Source: a virus. From it: a stretch of DNA of 64,000 bases. The stretch is from positions 1 to 64,000 of the IMG/VR virus record IMGVR_UViG_3300031576_000039. One strand, written 5' to 3'. Under the pieces are notes generated by a model that saw nothing but the letters and a program-made list of their open reading frames with translations, did no database searches and was not told the DNA's origin. Below are positions 25,831 through 49,682 of this stretch, in pieces. The position numbers and the translations under genes were made by a program. The number at the start of each line of letters is the position of its first letter. Position 1 is the first letter of the stretch.

Positions 25831-26199
25831 CTAGGAGCGAGACAACGGCGTGACCGCCAGCTCGGATGGTGGAGGCTCCGCGCCGAGGCCGGTCAGATCG
25901 ACAACTCGACCTCCAGCCGCCGCGGTGGCGAGCATCTCGCGCCGCATACCACTTGAGATCCTTCCTCCGACCAGTACGATCCCGTCGCACCGCGCGGCCA
26001 TCGCCTCGTCGTCTCGCAGGCCCCTCTCGCGCTGCTGCGCATCCGCATCGGGGAGGACCTCCACGTACGGGATCCACGGGCAGCAGAACGCGCGGAGCGG
26101 TTCCTGATCGATGAGCCAGCGCAGCCACCGCCGGGCGCGCGCGACGTTGCCCGCGACGTCTCCGACGACCGGGTGGGCCACGTACCACACCTCCGTCAC
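25831..26199 (-). CDS. DUF4406 / deoxyribosyltransferase-like protein
   Basis: 122 residues from GTG 26199 (GTGA overlap with the methyltransferase). TEVWYVAHPVVGDVAGNVAR, PWIPYVEVLPDADAQQRERG and CDGIVLVGGRISSGMRREML match the fold pattern of DUF4406 and nucleoside 2-deoxyribosyltransferase-like proteins: an N-terminal YVA.P start, then D..A...CD..VL..g..S.G...E. The family includes enzymes that move bases between deoxyribose units. As last gene of the 7-deazaguanine operon it might handle modified nucleosides, which is inference. Confidence 0.65.
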   Translation of the reverse strand: MTEVWYVAHPVVGDVAGNVARARRWLRWLIDQEPLRAFCCPWIPYVEVLPDADAQQRERGLRDDEAMAARCDGIVLVGGRISSGMRREMLATAAAGGRVVDLTGLGAEPPPSELAVTPLSRS

Positions 26200-26849
26200 A
26201 GCATCACCTCCAACCCACCCCCCTGCGCGCCGCCGAGACTGGACCAGCCACCGGAGCCGCGCCACAGTTCAACGAAGGCGCGGGGATCCTCCCCCCAGTA
26301 GATCAGGACGGAGGGGAACGGGGCAGGCGCGTCGGCGCCTAGGAACCGGATCCTGCCCGGCCAGAAGTACACGGCGCCGGCGTGAGAGATGGCCTCGCGG
26401 AACCACGCCGTGTCCGTGCGCGCGGCGACCAGCAGCACGAGCTGGTCGAGCCCGCGCATGCGCTGCCCCTCCACAGACGCCTTGCGCGCCCACGCGGCGA
26501 CGCCTCGCCCGTACGGAGGGTTGGCGAAGGCCAGCCCGTGCCCGGCCCACGGCTCGCGCAGCCCGTCCATCGCTCCGCACAGTTGCTCGCGCGGGAACCC
26601 GTCGAGGTCGGTGCCGTTGTGGTAGCCGACGGTCGGTCCGAACCACTCCTCGCACGCGAGCACGTGGCCGAGCTGGGAGGCGCAGGGGTCGAGACCCACC
26701 TGGCCGTCCGGCGCCAGCCTGCGGATCGGCCCGAGCACCTCGGGCGGCGTGCACCAGTCCATCCGCGCGCTCGACAGCAGGACGTCGGCGCGGAACGCGT
26801 TGTCGGCCTTCTCGCGGACACGATCCTCGACTGGGTGCTCCTCAGTCAC
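26196..26849 (-). CDS. Dam-like phage DNA N6-adenine methyltransferase
   Basis: 217 residues from GTG 26849 (GTGA overlap with queE). WCTPPEVLGPIRRLAPDGQV, GLDPCASQLGH, LAFANPPYGRGVAAWARKA and AGAVYFWPGRIRFLG give the phage Dam family pattern: W.TP start, D(P)CA SAM loop, NPPY catalytic motif and the FW.GRI.F C-terminal block. It should methylate adenine in phage DNA with S-adenosylmethionine. It is translationally coupled to the preQ0 pathway, suggesting a combined anti-restriction role. Confidence 0.8.
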   Translation of the reverse strand: MTEEHPVEDRVREKADNAFRADVLLSSARMDWCTPPEVLGPIRRLAPDGQVGLDPCASQLGHVLACEEWFGPTVGYHNGTDLDGFPREQLCGAMDGLREPWAGHGLAFANPPYGRGVAAWARKASVEGQRMRGLDQLVLLVAARTDTAWFREAISHAGAVYFWPGRIRFLGADAPAPFPSVLIYWGEDPRAFVELWRGSGGWSSLGGAQGGGLEVML

Positions 26850-27589
26850 GGCAACCCAACGTGCTTGTGCAACTGCGTCGACAGCCGCCAGCGCGGGTGG
26901 CTCGCCACGAAGTCGACGCAGCGCTCGAGGTGCAGGCGGTAGGCGAGGTGGCCAGAGTCCCGCAGGTCCTCCCGCAGGTTGCCGGCGAGGTGGGAGACCT
27001 GGACGAGCCCGCGGTCGACCGGGTCCTGGGGCTGAACGAAGTAGTGCTCGAACGCCGACCCCTCCGCCATGCCCACCAGGTCCTCGTCTGTCCAGCCCGG
27101 GTCGTGGTGCTGCGCCGCGCCCGGCAGCACGACCTTCAGTTCGCTGCCGCGCTTGACCCGCCACGGTGCGCCGCGCTTGGGGGACACCGTGACCCATCTC
27201 ATCAGCTCGAGCGCCTCCGCGTCGACCGAACCGTTGGTCTCGACCGCGACCAGCCAACCCTCGTCGCGCAGGGCGGAGACCAGCCCGCGGTCGACCTGGA
27301 GCATCGGCTCGCCGCCGGTCAGCACGCACCAGCGCTCGCCCGCCGCGGGCTTGTCCTTCTGCCACGCCACGAGCATGCGCCGCAGGAGAACGTCCTGAGC
27401 GACGCGCTCGCCATCCGCGAACGAGGAGTCGCACCAGCTCGCGCACGCCCCGGCACCGCGGTCGCGGTGCTCGGGGTGGCCGTCCCACAGGTTGCACCCG
27501 CTGAAGCGGACGAAGACGGCCTTGGTCCCCGCGCGGGCGCCCTCACCCTGGAGGGTGGGGAACACCTCTTTGACAACGTAGGACTTCAC
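26846..27589 (-). CDS. queE: 7-carboxy-7-deazaguanine synthase (radical SAM)
   Basis: 247 residues. It converts 6-carboxytetrahydropterin to CDG. PTLQGEGARAGTKAVFVRFS precedes the cluster cysteines, C32, C49 and C53; the long gap between first and second Cys is a known QueE variation of the CxxxCxxC motif. ERWCVLTGGEPMLQ is the GGEP SAM-binding block and AVETNGSV the next conserved one. GATCAAGGCA lies before the ATG (27596-27605). It is one base from queD and overlaps the methyltransferase gene by four bases. Confidence 0.85.
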   Translation of the reverse strand: MKSYVVKEVFPTLQGEGARAGTKAVFVRFSGCNLWDGHPEHRDRGAGACASWCDSSFADGERVAQDVLLRRMLVAWQKDKPAAGERWCVLTGGEPMLQVDRGLVSALRDEGWLVAVETNGSVDAEALELMRWVTVSPKRGAPWRVKRGSELKVVLPGAAQHHDPGWTDEDLVGMAEGSAFEHYFVQPQDPVDRGLVQVSHLAGNLREDLRDSGHLAYRLHLERCVDFVASHPRWRLSTQLHKHVGLP

Positions 27590-27590
27590 A

Positions 27591-28016
27591 TCACCTGCCT
27601 TGATCGTCCGCCCTGAACTCCGCGTAGCAGTTCGGCGTTTCGTGGCAGCGCACCGCGACCACCTGCACCTCAGGCTCGAGGGCTCGCCGAGCGACCTCGA
27701 ACACGTACGCCGCGAGGTTCTCGGCGCTAGGCGGCACCGGCAGCACGTAGAGCTTCTGCGCGTGCACGCTGAGCCAGTCGATGATCGGGTCCCCCTCCTG
27801 CGCGAGAAACCCGTGGTCCCAGTGCATGTCGAGCCAGCCCCCGACCCGCTCCTTGACCACGGAGAAGTCGATCACCCGTCCTACGTGATCGAGCTGTGAA
27901 GCACGGACGAACACCTCGAAGACGTATCGGTGGCCATGGACGTGAGCGCACTTCCCCTCGTGGTCTATCAACCGGTGCCCGGCGTCGATCTCGAGCCGGC
28001 GGGAGATGGTGGTCAC
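27591..28016 (-). CDS. queD: 6-carboxy-5,6,7,8-tetrahydropterin synthase
   Basis: 141 residues, normal for QueD. It makes 6-carboxytetrahydropterin from dihydroneopterin triphosphate. LEIDAGHRLIDHEGKCAHVH followed by GHRYVFEV shows the zinc ligands (His14, His27, His29) and catalytic Cys23. SAENLAAYVFEVARRALEPE and VRCHETPNCYAEF complete the family blocks. GTG 28016 overlaps the DpdA-ParB stop as GTGA. Confidence 0.9.
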   Translation of the reverse strand: MTTISRRLEIDAGHRLIDHEGKCAHVHGHRYVFEVFVRASQLDHVGRVIDFSVVKERVGGWLDMHWDHGFLAQEGDPIIDWLSVHAQKLYVLPVPPSAENLAAYVFEVARRALEPEVQVVAVRCHETPNCYAEFRADDQGR

Positions 28017-29581
28017 GGTGCCTCCTTCGGCTTGAAGTAGTGGGCGAGCAGGACCTCGATCGCCTCCTCCGGGTCCTCGGCGACCATCGCGAGGCGCGTG
28101 GCCGTGCGCGCCGTGACCTCCAGCTTCTTGAGCTTGGTCCCGTCGGCCTCCGGCGGATCGGGCACGACCACGTCGTCCGGCACCTGCTCCTCCGCCGGGC
28201 GCACGTCGGCGGCGGACAGGCGGTCGAACGAGAAGTCGACGGCGTCGAGGTACATCCGCAGCTCGCCCGCTGAGTAGGGCATGACCTCACGCATCTCGTC
28301 GACCGACACCGACTCGTGGATGTCGCGCATCAGGTCGGCGAGGCGCACCTGGTCCGGCGACCCGCCCAGCTCGTTGAGGATGATCGTGAGCTGCTTGGCC
28401 TGCGCGTCGTCCATCTCGCCGACGTCCACCACCGGGATCTCCACCATCCCGATCAGCTGCGCCGCGCGCCAGCGGTGCTCCCCGTTGATGATCTGGTAGG
28501 TGCCGTCGGCGAGGGTCCGCACGACCGGGCGTTCGACGAACCCGAACCTGCGCAGTGAGGCGGCCAGCTTCGTGAAGTCGTCGTCCGACTGGACGTTGTA
28601 GTTCCACGGGTTGGGCTGGACCCGCGCGGCCGGGACCAGCTTCAACTTCTGATGGAGTCCCTGTGACCGCCAGACCACGCAACTACCAGAGCGGACCGCA
28701 GAGCCAGGCGGTGGGGGAAGTTGGTGGGAGATGACGGTGGCCATCAGGTTGCCCATGTACTGCCACTTCATGTCGAAGTCGAGCGCGCCGTCGAGGTGGC
28801 TGCGCAGCTTCCCGTATGCGACCTGGTGCTCGCGCTCGCACCACGCACGCCACGCCGTCCACTTGGGACTGTAGATCGACGCCTGCGGGACGGAGCCGCC
28901 GGAGAACAGGCTACCGCACCCGTACCGCCCAGCGTTGGTCCAGGTGGCAGAGTCGCAGCTCTCCGCCCTCGTGTGCCTGAGGATCTCCGGCGTGGTGCAG
29001 CCGAGGAGGTGCAGGCTCGGGTGGTCGCACTCGCGCAGTACGCGAGCGACGGCGAGGAGGAAGCTCTTTTCGTTGAGGCGCTCGAGCGTGCGACCCATCG
29101 TCAGCGACGACTCCCGCACCGCGACGCCCACGCGTCCCTTCTTGGCCAGCTCGCGCAGTCCTGCCTCGCCGTCCTGCCGGTGCCACACGTACATCACGCG
29201 GTTGGGCAGCTTCGCGAAGAACTCCTCCCGCAGCCTCCACACGAAGTCGGTGCCGTGGCTCTCCTGGACGTCGACCTCCACCACCTCGTGCTTCCAGCCC
29301 CAGCGCTGGACGTCTTCGACGTAGCGCTCAGTGAAGCGGAGGACGTCGTCCTCGGTCTGGAGAGTACCCGCCTCCGCGCCGTAGACGAGGGTGAACACGC
29401 CCGAGTCCATGATCCACTCGGCGTCATCTTCCGCCACCGCCTCCATGGTGCTGCTGAGGTCCAACCCCTTCGTGCGCTCGTTGGCGAGGTAGTGGTAGGA
29501 GCACAGCCGGAACGGGTAGTCCGCGAAGCGCAGGACCACGCCCATGTTGGCGCCCTCGGAGCCGGCCAAGAAGACCTTCAC
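28013..29581 (-). CDS. DpdA-like DNA transglycosylase fused to ParB-like domain
   Basis: 522 residues from GTG 29581, which overlaps the queC stop as GTGA; a longer frame upstream is only shadow of queC. Residues 1-285 are TGT-like: WIMDSGVFTLVYGAE (DSG 59-61), EVVEVDVQESHGTD (Asp104, likely nucleophile) and LHLLGCTTPEILRHTRAESC followed by DSATW. Phage DpdA enzymes swap guanine in DNA for preQ0-type bases. Residues 313-410 are a ParB/sulfiredoxin-like domain (KLKLVPAARVQPNPWNYNV, INGEHRWRAAQL at 365-376). Residues 410-522 are helical and acidic. ParB-like domains may bind DNA or nucleotides, so this part may choose target sites. The fusion is seen directly; its role is inferred. Confidence 0.8.
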   Translation of the reverse strand: MKVFLAGSEGANMGVVLRFADYPFRLCSYHYLANERTKGLDLSSTMEAVAEDDAEWIMDSGVFTLVYGAEAGTLQTEDDVLRFTERYVEDVQRWGWKHEVVEVDVQESHGTDFVWRLREEFFAKLPNRVMYVWHRQDGEAGLRELAKKGRVGVAVRESSLTMGRTLERLNEKSFLLAVARVLRECDHPSLHLLGCTTPEILRHTRAESCDSATWTNAGRYGCGSLFSGGSVPQASIYSPKWTAWRAWCEREHQVAYGKLRSHLDGALDFDMKWQYMGNLMATVISHQLPPPPGSAVRSGSCVVWRSQGLHQKLKLVPAARVQPNPWNYNVQSDDDFTKLAASLRRFGFVERPVVRTLADGTYQIINGEHRWRAAQLIGMVEIPVVDVGEMDDAQAKQLTIILNELGGSPDQVRLADLMRDIHESVSVDEMREVMPYSAGELRMYLDAVDFSFDRLSAADVRPAEEQVPDDVVVPDPPEADGTKLKKLEVTARTATRLAMVAEDPEEAIEVLLAHYFKPKEAP

Positions 29582-30237
29582 GGCTGGTCCCACCTCGGGT
29601 ACAGCGCGAGCAGGCCCGCGGTCTCGAGGTCGCGTCGCATCAGCACGCAGTGGTGGCACCGGCGGCAGGGTACGTGCCCGCCCTCGTAGCAGTTCCACAG
29701 GCTGCCGAGGTCTACGCCAGCCTCCCTCAGGTTGAGGAGTAGCAGAGACTTCGGCAGGGCCCGGGCGCCGAGCGGCTGGGAGAACCGCACCGACACGCCC
29801 TTCTCCGAGCAGCGGGTGACGAGGTCGCCCATGCGCTCGTAGAACTCGGTGGTGCAGTCCCAGAAGCAGAAGGGATCGTCGTCCCGGTGGGTGGTCGTCT
29901 TGCTCCCCACCACCACCTCCTCCGCTCCGACCGCCTCCGCCAGGTTGGCCATGATGGTCCCGATCACCAGGTTGCGGATCGGCACGTAGGCGACCGGAAC
30001 GCCGCCCGCCGCCAGGCCCATCTCGAGCGTGACCTGGCGATTGACGAGCCGCTCGAAGTGGGGGTAGCGGGCCGCGAACCACGACGCGAGGTACTGCGCG
30101 GCCTCCCGCTCCTGCCGCGCGTACGGCTGGCCGTAGTCGACGAAGGCGGCGGTGACCTGCGCACCTGCGTCGAGGGTGAGCTTGGTAGAGTAGGCACTGT
30201 CGTACCCACCCGACAGCTCGCAGACCACCTTCCTCAC
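29578..30237 (-). CDS. queC: 7-cyano-7-deazaguanine (preQ0) synthase
   Basis: 219 residues from GTG 30237 (GTGA overlap with the aminotransferase). QueC turns CDG into preQ0 with ATP and ammonia. VVCELSGGYDSAYSTKL has the PP-loop SGGxDS (9-14); VVVGSKTTTHRDDDPFCFWD follows; the zinc site is C183, C191, C194 and C197 (NCYEGGHVPCRRCHHC). All key residues are present, so it should be active. It is coupled on both sides to the aminotransferase and DpdA-ParB genes. Confidence 0.9.
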   Translation of the reverse strand: MRKVVCELSGGYDSAYSTKLTLDAGAQVTAAFVDYGQPYARQEREAAQYLASWFAARYPHFERLVNRQVTLEMGLAAGGVPVAYVPIRNLVIGTIMANLAEAVGAEEVVVGSKTTTHRDDDPFCFWDCTTEFYERMGDLVTRCSEKGVSVRFSQPLGARALPKSLLLLNLREAGVDLGSLWNCYEGGHVPCRRCHHCVLMRRDLETAGLLALYPRWDQP

Positions 30238-31106
30238 GGACGACCTCCGATCGCGCTGCGCAAGCTGGCGTGCTCCTTGTCCGTGCCCGACCACAGGAAG
30301 ACCTGGTAGCCGTCGCGCGTGCGGTACAGGTCGAAGCGCTGCGCGACCTCCTCTGGGATCGCGCTCAGCCTGAGGGTGAGCACCGGGCCGTCGCCGACGA
30401 CGTGCTCCGGGTCGAGCAGGGCGACGAGGAGCGCACGCCTCTCGTCGATCTTCTCCCGCAGCTTCTTCGCGTCGAAGAGATGGAGGACGCGCGCGAGGTC
30501 GGCGACGAGGGGGATGGCCGGCGTGTGCGGGGACTCCCTCCTCTGCTGGAACTGCTCCCTGTAGCGGGCGAGGTTGAGGTAACTGTAGGCCCCCCTCGAG
30601 TCGAGGAGGAGGTCCCACCCTCGGGGTGACACCACGACGATCCCCATCACCGGCAGAGCGCCCAGTTGCTTGCTCGTCACCGTGGTCCAGATCTCCGCCT
30701 CCTGGAGCGCCGGGTAGTAGGGAAACGCGCTCACCATGTCCACCATCCACGCCCCGACCTTCGGCGGGGGTGGCGTCGCGAACGAGGTCGCGGTGTCGTA
30801 GCCGACCCACGCAGCGTGGGTGGACTCAGGAGAGAACACGTCGTGCGCGCGGGCGAGCATCTCCAGACGCGCGGCGAACTCGAGGTCCGCACGCTCCACC
30901 CGCCACGAGCGGTTGCTGCTGGCGAACACCGACTCGTTCGCCAGCGTGCCGCTACCCGTGAGGAGCAGGACGTCGCTGTCGAGTGGGACCGAGAACCTCT
31001 CCCTGAACAGGTCCACCGCCTCGGTCAAGAGTTCGCGGTAGGTCGCACTGCGGTGGTGGAAGTTCCCGGGCTGTCCCGTGAGGGTCCTGGCGTTGGGACC
31101 GAACAC
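30234..31106 (-). CDS. Class V PLP-dependent aminotransferase
   Basis: 290 residues, shorter than the usual 350-390. LLLTGSGTLANESVFASSNR fits the phosphate-binding GSGT loop of alanine-glyoxylate/serine-pyruvate aminotransferases. WMVDMVSAFPYYPALQEAEI provides the PLP-ring Asp (123) and following Ser, and WTTVTSKQLGALPVMGIVVV holds the likely Schiff-base Lys146 in the class V S-K-x-L-G context. It lies one base after folE and is coupled to queC by GTGA. No step of the known GTP-to-preQ0 route needs an aminotransferase, so it may aminate or remodel the 7-substituent, or supply nitrogen. Substrate unknown. Confidence 0.8.
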   Translation of the reverse strand: MFGPNARTLTGQPGNFHHRSATYRELLTEAVDLFRERFSVPLDSDVLLLTGSGTLANESVFASSNRSWRVERADLEFAARLEMLARAHDVFSPESTHAAWVGYDTATSFATPPPPKVGAWMVDMVSAFPYYPALQEAEIWTTVTSKQLGALPVMGIVVVSPRGWDLLLDSRGAYSYLNLARYREQFQQRRESPHTPAIPLVADLARVLHLFDAKKLREKIDERRALLVALLDPEHVVGDGPVLTLRLSAIPEEVAQRFDLYRTRDGYQVFLWSGTDKEHASLRSAIGGRP

Positions 31107-31107
31107 G

Positions 31108-31677
31108 TTACCCCACCCGCGTGAGACGCGAGAGGAACTCTGTCCTCACGCTCGAGTCCGACAGGAAGGCACCGCCCAGCGCCGTGGTGACCATCTCCGA
31201 GCGCTGCTTGCCGACGCCGCGCGCTGCCATGCACATGTGCTGCGCGCGAACCTCCACGCCCCACCCGATGGGGTTGAGGTGCTCCTGCAACGCCTCGCCG
31301 ATCTGGCTGGTCATCCGCTCCTGGATCTGGAGGCGGCGCGCGAAGCACTCGACCAGGCGGGCGAGCTTCGACAGGCCGACGACGCGCGCGCGGGGGATGT
31401 ACGCGAGGGACGCGACCCCGTGGAATACGAGGGTGTGGTGCTCGCAGAGGGAGAAGAAGTCGACCTCGCGCAGGACGACCATCGCGTTGTAGGTACCGCC
31501 GTCGAACTGCGCCGCGAGGATATCCTTGGGGTCCATCTCGTACCCGCCGCACAGCTCCGCCATTGAGCGTGCGACGCGGGCCGGCGTGTCGCGCAGGCCG
31601 TCGCGCTCCGGGTCCTCACCGACGCCCGCCAAGATCATGCGGACCCCCTCCGAGATCAGTGCCTCATCCATGGACAA
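31108..31677 (-). CDS. folE: GTP cyclohydrolase I
   Basis: 189 residues from TTG 31677, which has AGGAGG five bases upstream; ATG 31671 is the alternative. It opens GTP to dihydroneopterin triphosphate, the entry step of the pathway. DFFSLCEHHTLVFHG carries zinc Cys78 and catalytic His80/81, VVGLSKLARLVECFARRLQI and QERMTSQI are the family core, and QHMCMAARGVGK has the second zinc Cys149. Its start overlaps the sbcC end. Confidence 0.92.
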   Translation of the reverse strand: MSMDEALISEGVRMILAGVGEDPERDGLRDTPARVARSMAELCGGYEMDPKDILAAQFDGGTYNAMVVLREVDFFSLCEHHTLVFHGVASLAYIPRARVVGLSKLARLVECFARRLQIQERMTSQIGEALQEHLNPIGWGVEVRAQHMCMAARGVGKQRSEMVTTALGGAFLSDSSVRTEFLSRLTRVG

Positions 31678-48073: not shown

Positions 48074-48670
48074 TCATTCGATCACGCCCGCGAGGCGCAG
48101 CAGCCCCTGGCCCAGGTCCGCGCCGCGGCCCGCCGCGCGGCGCAGCGCCTTCTTCGCGTCCGCCAGCTCGCCGCGCGTGCGGAAGGTCAGCTCGAGCAGG
48201 AACACGGGGCCCGGGTCGTCGGGCTCGTCCATGTCCGGCACCTCGATCGGCGCGCCCACGTCGCCGACGTCCACGTCGCGGCCCGCGTCGAGCAGGTCGC
48301 CGACGGCCCAACCAGCCTCCGCCAGCTCCTGGGCGATCCCGGCCGCGCGCCCGAGGTCGACCTCGCCGCGCAGGCGGTTGAGCCCGACCCGGAGCGCCGC
48401 CTGCTGCCGCTCGTCCAGGGCCACCACGCGGGCGCGCACGGACGTCCTGCCCACCTCGCGCATCGCGCGGGCACGGTGGTGGCCGTCCACGATCACGAAC
48501 ATGCTGGTCCCGGGAATCGGCGACACGACGATCGCAGCGAGGTCGCCGTAGGCGTCGATCGACCTCACGAGCAGCTCGTACTGCTCCCGGCCCATCACGT
48601 TGGGGTTGTCGTCGGCCTCGACGAGGTCGGCGATAGGGATGGTGACGATCGGGTGTTCCCCGTTGATCAC
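48074..48670 (-). CDS. ParB-like protein
   Basis: 198 residues from GTG 48670 (GTGA overlap). HPIVTIPIADLVEADDNPNV, then SPIPGTSMFVIVDGHHRARA with GHHRA in place of the usual GERR/GEHR, and ARVVALDERQQAALRVGLNR give a ParB/Srx-like domain. The C-terminal part is acidic (IEVPDMDEPDDPGP). A DNA-segregation role is not implied; phage ParB-like proteins may bind DNA or act as nucleases or CTPases. Distinct from the ParB part of the DpdA fusion. Confidence 0.7.
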   Translation of the reverse strand: MINGEHPIVTIPIADLVEADDNPNVMGREQYELLVRSIDAYGDLAAIVVSPIPGTSMFVIVDGHHRARAMREVGRTSVRARVVALDERQQAALRVGLNRLRGEVDLGRAAGIAQELAEAGWAVGDLLDAGRDVDVGDVGAPIEVPDMDEPDDPGPVFLLELTFRTRGELADAKKALRRAAGRGADLGQGLLRLAGVIE

Positions 48671-49182
48671 GGCTCCTCCTTCCACAGGTCGTACAGGTCG
48701 GCGGACGCGAGCAGCTTGCGCCGCACCCGCGCGACCGCGGTCGGATCGAGACCGCGCGGGCGCTCGTGGTCCATGAACACGTACTGCGCCGTGTGCTCGT
48801 CGTCGTCCCCCGCGACCTGCCGCGCGATGCGCCAGATCCGCTCGCGCCGCCGCGCCTCGCCCACGAGTTGGTCGGGGCGGCCGAGCGCGGGCAGGTCCTC
48901 GGGGACCGCTGCGCGGTGGAGCCCGCGCAGCTCGGTCAGCTTGTGCGCCGACGCGCTCACCGGCGCGGACGCCTTCCACGCCCAGCGCCGGAGCGTGAGC
49001 ATCGCAGCGCGCCAGCAGTACGCCCCGACGGGAACGCCGACCCGCGGGTCGTGGGTGCGGCGTGCGCGCAGGATCGCCTCCGCTGCCTCCTGCGTCATGT
49101 CGTCGACGTCGGCCCACCAGCAGCGCGCCTTGTAGCGCGCCGCCGCCTGGGCGGCCATCTTGAGCACCTCGTCGGTGTCCAC
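48667..49182 (-). CDS. Sigma-factor-like protein
   Basis: 171 residues from GTG 49182. WWADVDDMTQEAAEAILRAR followed by RTHDPRVGVPVGAYCWRAAM and LTLRRW recalls sigma70 region 2 (D..DL.QE....L..A...FDP..G..F..Y....I...I). The C-terminal part (AHKLTELRGLHRAAVPEDLP, ARVRRKLLASADLYDLW) might hold a weak region-4-like helix pair, but no clear -35 motif is seen. It could direct host RNA polymerase to phage promoters. Coupled to parB-like gene. Confidence 0.5.
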   Translation of the reverse strand: MDTDEVLKMAAQAAARYKARCWWADVDDMTQEAAEAILRARRTHDPRVGVPVGAYCWRAAMLTLRRWAWKASAPVSASAHKLTELRGLHRAAVPEDLPALGRPDQLVGEARRRERIWRIARQVAGDDDEHTAQYVFMDHERPRGLDPTAVARVRRKLLASADLYDLWKEEP

Positions 49183-49184
49183 GG

Positions 49185-49682
49185 CTAGCTCCCCCCCGAG
49201 ACGAGTCGGACGCGGACGAGCAGCGCCCGCCTGAACTTCTGCGACGACCTGGCGCGCCGGAGGTCCGCGCTGGACACGCGGGCGGCTGCGAGCTCGACCG
49301 CCCAGCCCGGCCACCCCACCCACTCGGCGTTCCCCGCGGTCCTGCCGATCGAGTTGGGCGGGCGACCGACGACACGACGAGGCCGCACCCCGGCGAGCGC
49401 CATCGGCTCGACGAGCGTGACGCGCTGGATGACCTCCTCGTAGCCGGCCTTCTCGGCCGCGCGCACGCGGGCGGCGAAGTCGCGGGCCCTCCGGGCGGGC
49501 CTGCGGTCCGGCGGCGGGAAGCGCTCGTCGACCGCAGCGCGCACGGCACGCAGCGCGGAGGCCGCGGCCGACCTCGCGTTGCGCCGCGCGCGCGCGCCAG
49601 CGCCCTGCGACCTCAGGAGCCTCCGCAGGGCAGCGAGCAGTCGCCTGACGGGCAGCCCCAGAGGAGGCGACAGGACCGTCAC
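49185..49682 (-). CDS. Unknown basic protein
   Basis: 165 residues from GTG 49682 (GTGA overlap). Extremely Arg/Ala-rich (RRLLAALRRLLRSQGAGARA) with NSIGRTAGNAEWVGWPGWAV in the middle. The basic character suggests nucleic-acid contact. No family recognised. Confidence 0.5.
   Translation of the reverse strand: MTVLSPPLGLPVRRLLAALRRLLRSQGAGARARRNARSAAASALRAVRAAVDERFPPPDRRPARRARDFAARVRAAEKAGYEEVIQRVTLVEPMALAGVRPRRVVGRPPNSIGRTAGNAEWVGWPGWAVELAAARVSSADLRRARSSQKFRRALLVRVRLVSGGS

Follow-up and report, generated by a model that had tools for sequence, protein, structure and literature searches.

A compact class V PLP enzyme paired with queC in a viral 7-deazaguanine DNA-modification operon, and its possible role in an amide-linked DNA base

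Operons for 7-deazaguanine DNA modification are an already known kind of system, and the locus studied here raises the question of what a pyridoxal 5'-phosphate (PLP) enzyme is doing in one of them. The locus lies in the IMG/VR virus record IMGVR_UViG_3300031576_000039, a record of 64,701 bases whose first 64,000 positions were analysed and are called the window throughout. The window co-encodes FolE, QueD, QueE, a QueC-family protein and DpdA, which is the gene set of the phage 7-deazaguanine DNA-modification system, and between folE and queC it carries a gene for a class V aminotransferase (AT). The 7-deazaguanines of phage DNA include preQ0, 7-amido-7-deazaguanine (ADG), G+ and preQ1 (PMC6884629). 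The original prediction, made from the letters of the sequence, saw no task for the AT in the route to preQ0 and suggested that it either makes a new substituent at position 7 or supplies the nitrogen used by QueC. We analysed the enzyme, its neighbours and their viral relatives, which are referred to by locus number (L) where they have to be told apart.

The PLP enzyme and its coupling to queC

Searched by itself, the window AT matches no Pfam family significantly, so automatic annotation would miss it; at the curated cut-off of PF00266 it also gives no match, while the full-length AT of L064 passes (46.7 vs 21.5 bits). Its kinship appears in other comparisons: phmmer aligns it to the Thermus protein 1iug (E 3.8e-10), a 12-member AT alignment matches class V aminotransferases at 6e-20 in a profile search, and Foldseek, given an AlphaFold2 model (pLDDT 90, pTM 0.88), places class V enzymes first (1iug, 3ffr, 2dr1; top E 1.5e-16, probability 1.00). 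The PLP-site residues are retained, namely Lys146 (the PLP lysine), Asp123 (the ring-nitrogen aspartate), Thr105, Ser126 and Phe77, together with the ET, VS, GSGT and FxxR motifs. Sequence and predicted fold together indicate, with confidence as to the fold, that the AT is a genuine class V (fold type I) PLP enzyme.

The AT shares fold and PLP residues with known class V aminotransferases (1iug and the phosphoserine and alanine-glyoxylate enzymes), but it is about 60 residues shorter than its cellular relatives, contains no cysteine at all and differs at one substrate-binding position. In cellular class V enzymes, the arginine of the C-terminal FRIGHMG motif binds the substrate carboxylate (Arg360 of human alanine-glyoxylate aminotransferase, Arg335 of E. 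coli SerC). This position is glutamine in 14 of 14 viral ATs whose C-terminus is present (Gln268 in the window), and the compared cellular homologues carry arginine there, except for one Chitinophagaceae protein. The same exchange is found in the L064 AT (FQVCTIG vs FRIANIG in 6pd1), a divergent protein that branches outside the compact family and sits in the FolE-AT-QueC-DpdA slot. An aromatic SAFPYY motif is conserved in the compact family, and its PYY is absent from the L064 AT.

Two more specific identities were rejected. The L064 AT is not assigned as PhnW (2-aminoethylphosphonate), as it scores 168 bits with TIGR03301 against a cut-off of 361 and generic class V aminotransferases (Thermus and others) score equally; for the window AT, a cysteine desulfurase was discarded because the active-site cysteine is missing. 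The Chitinophagaceae enzyme with the arginine-to-glutamine change (L029:2334-3849) is encoded by a gene that overlaps a GNAT acyltransferase gene; no more relatives of it were found in 120 genomes of its order, so it stands as a single anecdote.

Single-sequence searches of IMG/VR with the AT, QueC and DpdA as queries gave no matches, and no isolated phage or plasmid, among 50,697 and 72,556 records respectively, carried the compact AT; the relatives recovered by seeded IMG/VR searches share 29-50% identity with that of the window. With near-duplicate loci counted once (L008/L009, L030/L031, L033/L034, L036/L037), ten independent viruses encode a class V enzyme immediately 5' of queC (the window, L008, L010, L030, L036, L042, L043, L045, L058 and L064). 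The two genes share a 4-base ATGA, GTGA or TTGA overlap in nine of these ten, and 25 bases in L043. Since four of the loci (L042, L043, L045 and L064) were retrieved by QueC queries in which the AT was not used, the link is no artefact of AT-based searching. Next to other types of QueC, the AT was found in none of five viral loci (L046, L048-L051).

In most of the ten viruses, FolE, QueD, QueE and a DpdA or tRNA-guanine transglycosylase (TGT)-like gene accompany the pair, and the DpdA/TGT-like gene mostly stands beside it; in L011, whose contig ends within the AT, the genes preceding it are ParB, DpdA and a HAD gene. Ten viruses thus lend strong support to the expectation that the PLP enzyme is part of the 7-deazaguanine system and acts together with QueC, and the homologues, which could have proved never to be linked to 7-deazaguanine genes, are linked to them in all ten. 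We consider it very likely that the AT and QueC work as a functional pair when the base is made. That the AT instead serves unrelated host-takeover metabolism, such as the supply of serine or other amino acids, and is merely located in the operon would agree with the membership of phosphoserine aminotransferase in class V and with the closest solved folds being of that type. Against this, the AT overlaps or adjoins the 5' side of queC in ten viruses, between which AT identity is mostly 24-50%, it is co-restricted with a single QueC clade (next section), and the substrate arginine of amino-acid aminotransferases is lost, which makes this explanation highly improbable.

The AT-linked QueC clade

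The catalytic residues of QueC had been predicted to be intact. Compared with the published signature (PMC13329287), the window protein retains SGGxDS, VPxRN, CY and the CxxCxxC zinc motif, but not YxQxHxxE and YPDC, which read YGQPYARQE and FWDC. The AT-linked proteins generally have YGQPYxxQE and mostly FxDC or FxDS, the latter preceded by a five-residue insertion; in E. coli, a Y131F QueC keeps partial activity (PMC13329287). Nor can this QueC be taken as simply canonical, as the original prediction had it: in a maximum-likelihood tree of 30 QueCs, the ten AT-linked proteins form one clade (98/95) apart from phage preQ0-type QueC and Gat-QueC, and AT linkage requires one change on this tree, where shuffling gave a mean of 8.7. 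Both by profile and by fold, the PDB entry that the AT-linked QueC matches best is Cap9 (9nto), by a narrow margin over QueC itself.

The known systems differ from the window in what accompanies QueC. The preQ0-type operons of Rosebush, CAjan and Gordonia phage Sour share with it FolE, QueD, QueE, QueC and DpdA, often with a ParB-like gene beside dpdA, and dPreQ0 has been demonstrated in Rosebush and CAjan (PMC6884629). Their QueC, however, reads YGQRH and YPDC (YADC in Sour) and no PLP enzyme is present, whereas the window QueC is of the other clade and is coupled to the AT. In the Gat-QueC phages (9g, MiCath, Megan), QueC likewise has an added partner for nitrogen chemistry at C7 and lacks the YxQxHxxE histidine, but the partner is a fused N-terminal class II glutaminase and the proteins form a clade of their own (99/99). 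Cap9, from type IV cyclic-oligonucleotide-based antiphage signalling systems (CBASS), is a QueC-family protein that forms an amide from 7-carboxy-7-deazaguanine (CDG). It differs in that its target is the N-terminal glycine of a protein, its setting is bacterial immunity and its neighbour is a CD-NTase, whereas the neighbours of the window QueC are the AT and DpdA; among the annotated operon genes, no CD-NTase (MGGS-type N-terminus) lies beside QueC.

A further comparison is the YcfC/YcfA pair of 6-thioguanine synthesis, in which a PLP enzyme and a PP-loop ATPase act on guanine (PMC6225789). On this model, the AT would deliver sulfur, QueC would be a thiolating PP-loop enzyme and the product would be a 7-thiocarboxamide or similar; the QueC model does match YcfA as well, at rank 5 and on. 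YcfA nevertheless ranks well below Cap9 and QueC, and the window QueC keeps the CDG motifs in altered form. The window AT, moreover, has no cysteine and so no persulfide relay, and cysteine-type substrates need the carboxylate arginine that is lost here. We give sulfur delivery almost no credence, marginally less than we give unrelated metabolism.

A further QueC variant was noted in L046 (7953-8924) and L048 (7699-8631), where phage QueC-like proteins lack YPDC and have a C-terminal extension; they sit in full folE-queD-queE-dpdA-parB operons that contain no AT.

A second ligase partner and the candidate base

Four ATs of the compact family (L032, L033, L035 and L059) do not adjoin que genes. 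Each is directly followed by a gene for a RimK-like ATP-grasp enzyme and then by a HAD gene, with a start-stop overlap between AT and RimK-like gene in L032 (the pair at L032:8001-9958) and L059. The clusters also hold glycosyltransferase-like, methyltransferase and PIG-L genes, and in L032 they lie downstream of a tail protein. QueC, FolE and DpdA were found nowhere in the L032-L035 contigs, which may be incomplete. The RimK-linked ATs share the PYY motif and the glutamine, and in the AT tree they are not cleanly separated from the QueC-linked ones, L043 and L064 being long branches. As the AT stands beside either a RimK-like ligase or QueC, what members of the family have in common is a neighbouring ATP-dependent enzyme of a type that forms amides. 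HAD genes are not confined to one of the two settings: besides those downstream of the RimK-linked ATs, L011 (7604-8008) and L042 (6747-7175) have a gene for a HAD/NT5C-type phosphatase that separates the DpdA/TGT-like gene from the AT.

We tentatively propose, as a reading that is possible but open to considerable doubt, that the AT makes an amine and that its partner ligase attaches it, in the window QueC to CDG, for insertion by DpdA. FolE, QueD and QueE would convert GTP to CDG, and the AT would turn an aldehyde or ketone into a small amine that is no ordinary alpha-amino acid. QueC would adenylate the CDG carboxylate and then join the amine to it, stopping at the amide, much as Cap9 does with the glycine N-terminus. 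The DpdA-ParB protein would then swap guanine at DNA sites for the finished base, and virion DNA would carry 7-(N-substituted carboxamide)-7-deazaguanine instead of plain preQ0. In the other set, the RimK-like ligase would attach the AT-made amine. Two precedents are Cap9, which couples CDG to the N-terminal glycine of a protein (PMC13279940), and the phage enzyme CmoY, which attaches glycine to a DNA-base carboxylate (PMC12783734). The CmoA/CmoX/CmoY system of Synechococcus phage S-B43 resembles the proposed one in using a DNA-base carboxylate as the handle for an ATP-dependent amide ligase (PMC12783734), but its base is cytosine, its ligase is asparagine-synthetase-like, its amine is plain glycine and no PLP enzyme takes part.

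Of the two roles first suggested for the AT, making a new 7-substituent would be the better fit, since ATs of this family also occur with a RimK-like amide ligase where no que genes were detected. The statement that no QueF and no Gat-type glutaminase is present was borne out when the record was checked for both: the sole QueF match is the homologous FolE fold, and phrog_10428 is matched through its QueC part only (positions 260-458), while no search of its own was made for ArcS, which had been named with them.

As a nitrogen donor, the AT would release ammonia or hand it to QueC in place of the glutaminase of Gat-QueC, and the product would be ordinary ADG or preQ0. The strict AT-queC coupling would suit this role, as would the fused glutaminase that supplies nitrogen in other phages and has no counterpart in the window, and the YxQxHxxE histidine is missing from both AT-linked QueC and Gat-QueC. 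Ammonia for QueC would, however, be irrelevant in the viruses without detected que genes, where the AT pairs with a RimK-like ligase. Free ammonia is not normally released by transaminases, the loss of the carboxylate arginine speaks against an ordinary amino-acid donor, and many phages produce preQ0 without any donor gene (PMC6884629). We regard nitrogen donation as unlikely.

Somewhat less likely again is direct action of the AT on the 7-deazaguanine, free or in DNA, whereby a 7-carbonyl such as 7-formyl would become 7-aminomethyl and QueF would be replaced, in the manner of pyridoxamine-pyruvate transaminase on an aromatic aldehyde. The missing QueF and the conserved aromatic SAFPYY motif of the compact family would be in keeping with it, and the AT has a weak NCBIfam likeness to pyridoxamine--pyruvate transaminase (2.6e-7, far below cut-off). 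But the operon has no aldehyde-making enzyme, the RimK-linked ATs have PYY and glutamine yet no detected 7-deazaguanine genes, and the L064 AT has no PYY.

Several points also weigh against the amine-ligation scheme. The loss of the carboxylate arginine leaves the amino donor unexplained. The lead of Cap9 over canonical QueC is small (71.9 vs 67.9 bits by profile), and the RimK-linked ATs, at an identity of only about 40%, may act on a different substrate. The QueCs of nt-1 and HCTV-5 likewise lack the YxQxHxxE histidine; phage nt-1 DNA contains some preQ0, and HVTV-1, a relative of halovirus HCTV-5, contains preQ1. The histidine is also missing from the AT-free QueCs of L046 and L048-L050, which share YGQPY with no AT nearby, and we therefore rejected its loss as a sign that QueC stops at the amide.

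A shade more tentatively than the ligation itself, we suggest that the product may be a new DNA base, a 7-deazaguanine whose C7 carboxylate bears an amide-linked side group built by the PLP enzyme and ligated by QueC. It might then be one use of a portable cassette of a glutamine-type class V enzyme plus an ATP-dependent ligase, with a RimK-like ligase and another target in other phages.

Operon layout and significance

The eight leftward genes predicted to be joined by 4-base overlaps or near-zero gaps were confirmed on the minus strand, from 31671 to 25831 (Table 1). All are open without internal stops, with G+C at third codon positions (GC3) of 0.82-0.93. The junctions comprise five 4-base overlaps (AT/QueC with GTGA, QueC/DpdA, DpdA-ParB/QueD, QueE/Dam and Dam/DUF) and two 1-base gaps (FolE/AT and QueD/QueE). 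The row of eight stood, but not as a closed unit: upstream, an SbcC-like gene shares 8 bases with folE, so the genes are part of a longer leftward transcription unit. The last gene, thought to be DUF4406-like, scores as DUF7768 instead. A terminase, a head/portal-like gene, a DNA polymerase, a DnaB-like helicase and a UvsX-like recombinase are encoded in the same record.

Table 1. Genes of the coupled leftward row, in order of transcription, with the evidence for each assignment
Gene and product	Position	Strand	Evidence
folE, GTP cyclohydrolase I, 187 aa, first step to CDG	31108..31671	-	PF01227 1.4e-64; NCBIfam above cut-off; SLCEHH and HMC zinc motifs
AT, compact class V PLP enzyme, 290 aa	30234..31106	-	phmmer, profile search, AlphaFold2/Foldseek, residue comparison
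queC, AT-linked clade, 219 aa	29578..30237	-	PF06508 8.9e-23; tree; Cap9 9nto best PDB match; junction
DpdA (residues ~1-290) fused to ParB-like domain (~300-400)	28013..29581	-	phrog_887 2e-13; ParB_N PF02195 4.6e-14
queD, 6-carboxytetrahydropterin synthase	27591..28016	-	PTPS PF01242 4.4e-31; phrog_2389 6e-42
queE, 7-carboxy-7-deazaguanine synthase, Cx14CxxC type	26846..27589	-	TIGR04508 2.4e-53; phrog_2076 4e-23
Dam-like DNA N6-adenine methyltransferase	26196..26849	-	PF05869 1.6e-10
DUF7768 / nucleoside 2-deoxyribosyltransferase-like, last gene of coupled row	25831..26199	-	PF24963 3.7e-13; phrog_355 8.9e-8

The Dam-like methyltransferase is probably accessory and outside the 7-deazaguanine route; its slot is occupied by an MT-A70-type methyltransferase in L030. 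The genes dpdA and parB, fused in the window, are separate neighbours in L030, L058, Mufasa8 and several actinobacteriophages, and this comparison of gene arrangements suggests that the ParB domain may guide DpdA to DNA. A second ParB-like domain ends a 491-codon open frame elsewhere in the window (48074-49549), the first part of which looks non-coding, so that the true start is probably internal. CTGCAG occurs twice in the window (1-64000) against about 11 occurrences expected from sub-words, possibly a case of restriction avoidance.

Some of the related operons carry variations in their FolE and QueE genes. A LAGLIDADG-type intein splits FolE exactly at the catalytic SLC motif in L030 (6424-7995), and in L064 (102-965) an intein end (VLAHN) stands in QueE immediately ahead of the conserved radical-SAM cysteine. 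The FolE proteins of L043 (6198-7088) and L045 (9669-10571) have a phosphoribosyltransferase-like domain at the N-terminus, and in L036 a phosphoribosyltransferase is encoded by a gene of its own close to folE.

The literature searched, which took in few subscription papers and not Cui et al. 2023, yielded no mention of the AT-QueC pair, of its QueC clade or of the arginine-to-glutamine class V family. Cui et al. reportedly describe 7-deazaguanine (DG), CDG and the methyl and formyl derivatives of preQ1 in phage DNA. To our knowledge, none of the 7-deazaguanine bases of phage DNA needs a PLP enzyme. From the conserved pairing of AT and QueC in ten distant viruses, all uncultured, one would predict one more base and one more reaction for the QueC scaffold, whose roles in anti-phage defence are under study. 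Being compact and expressible, the two genes also offer a way to test which groups QueC-family ligases are able to attach, and they may provide amide-tagged DNA as well as new resistance to host nucleases.

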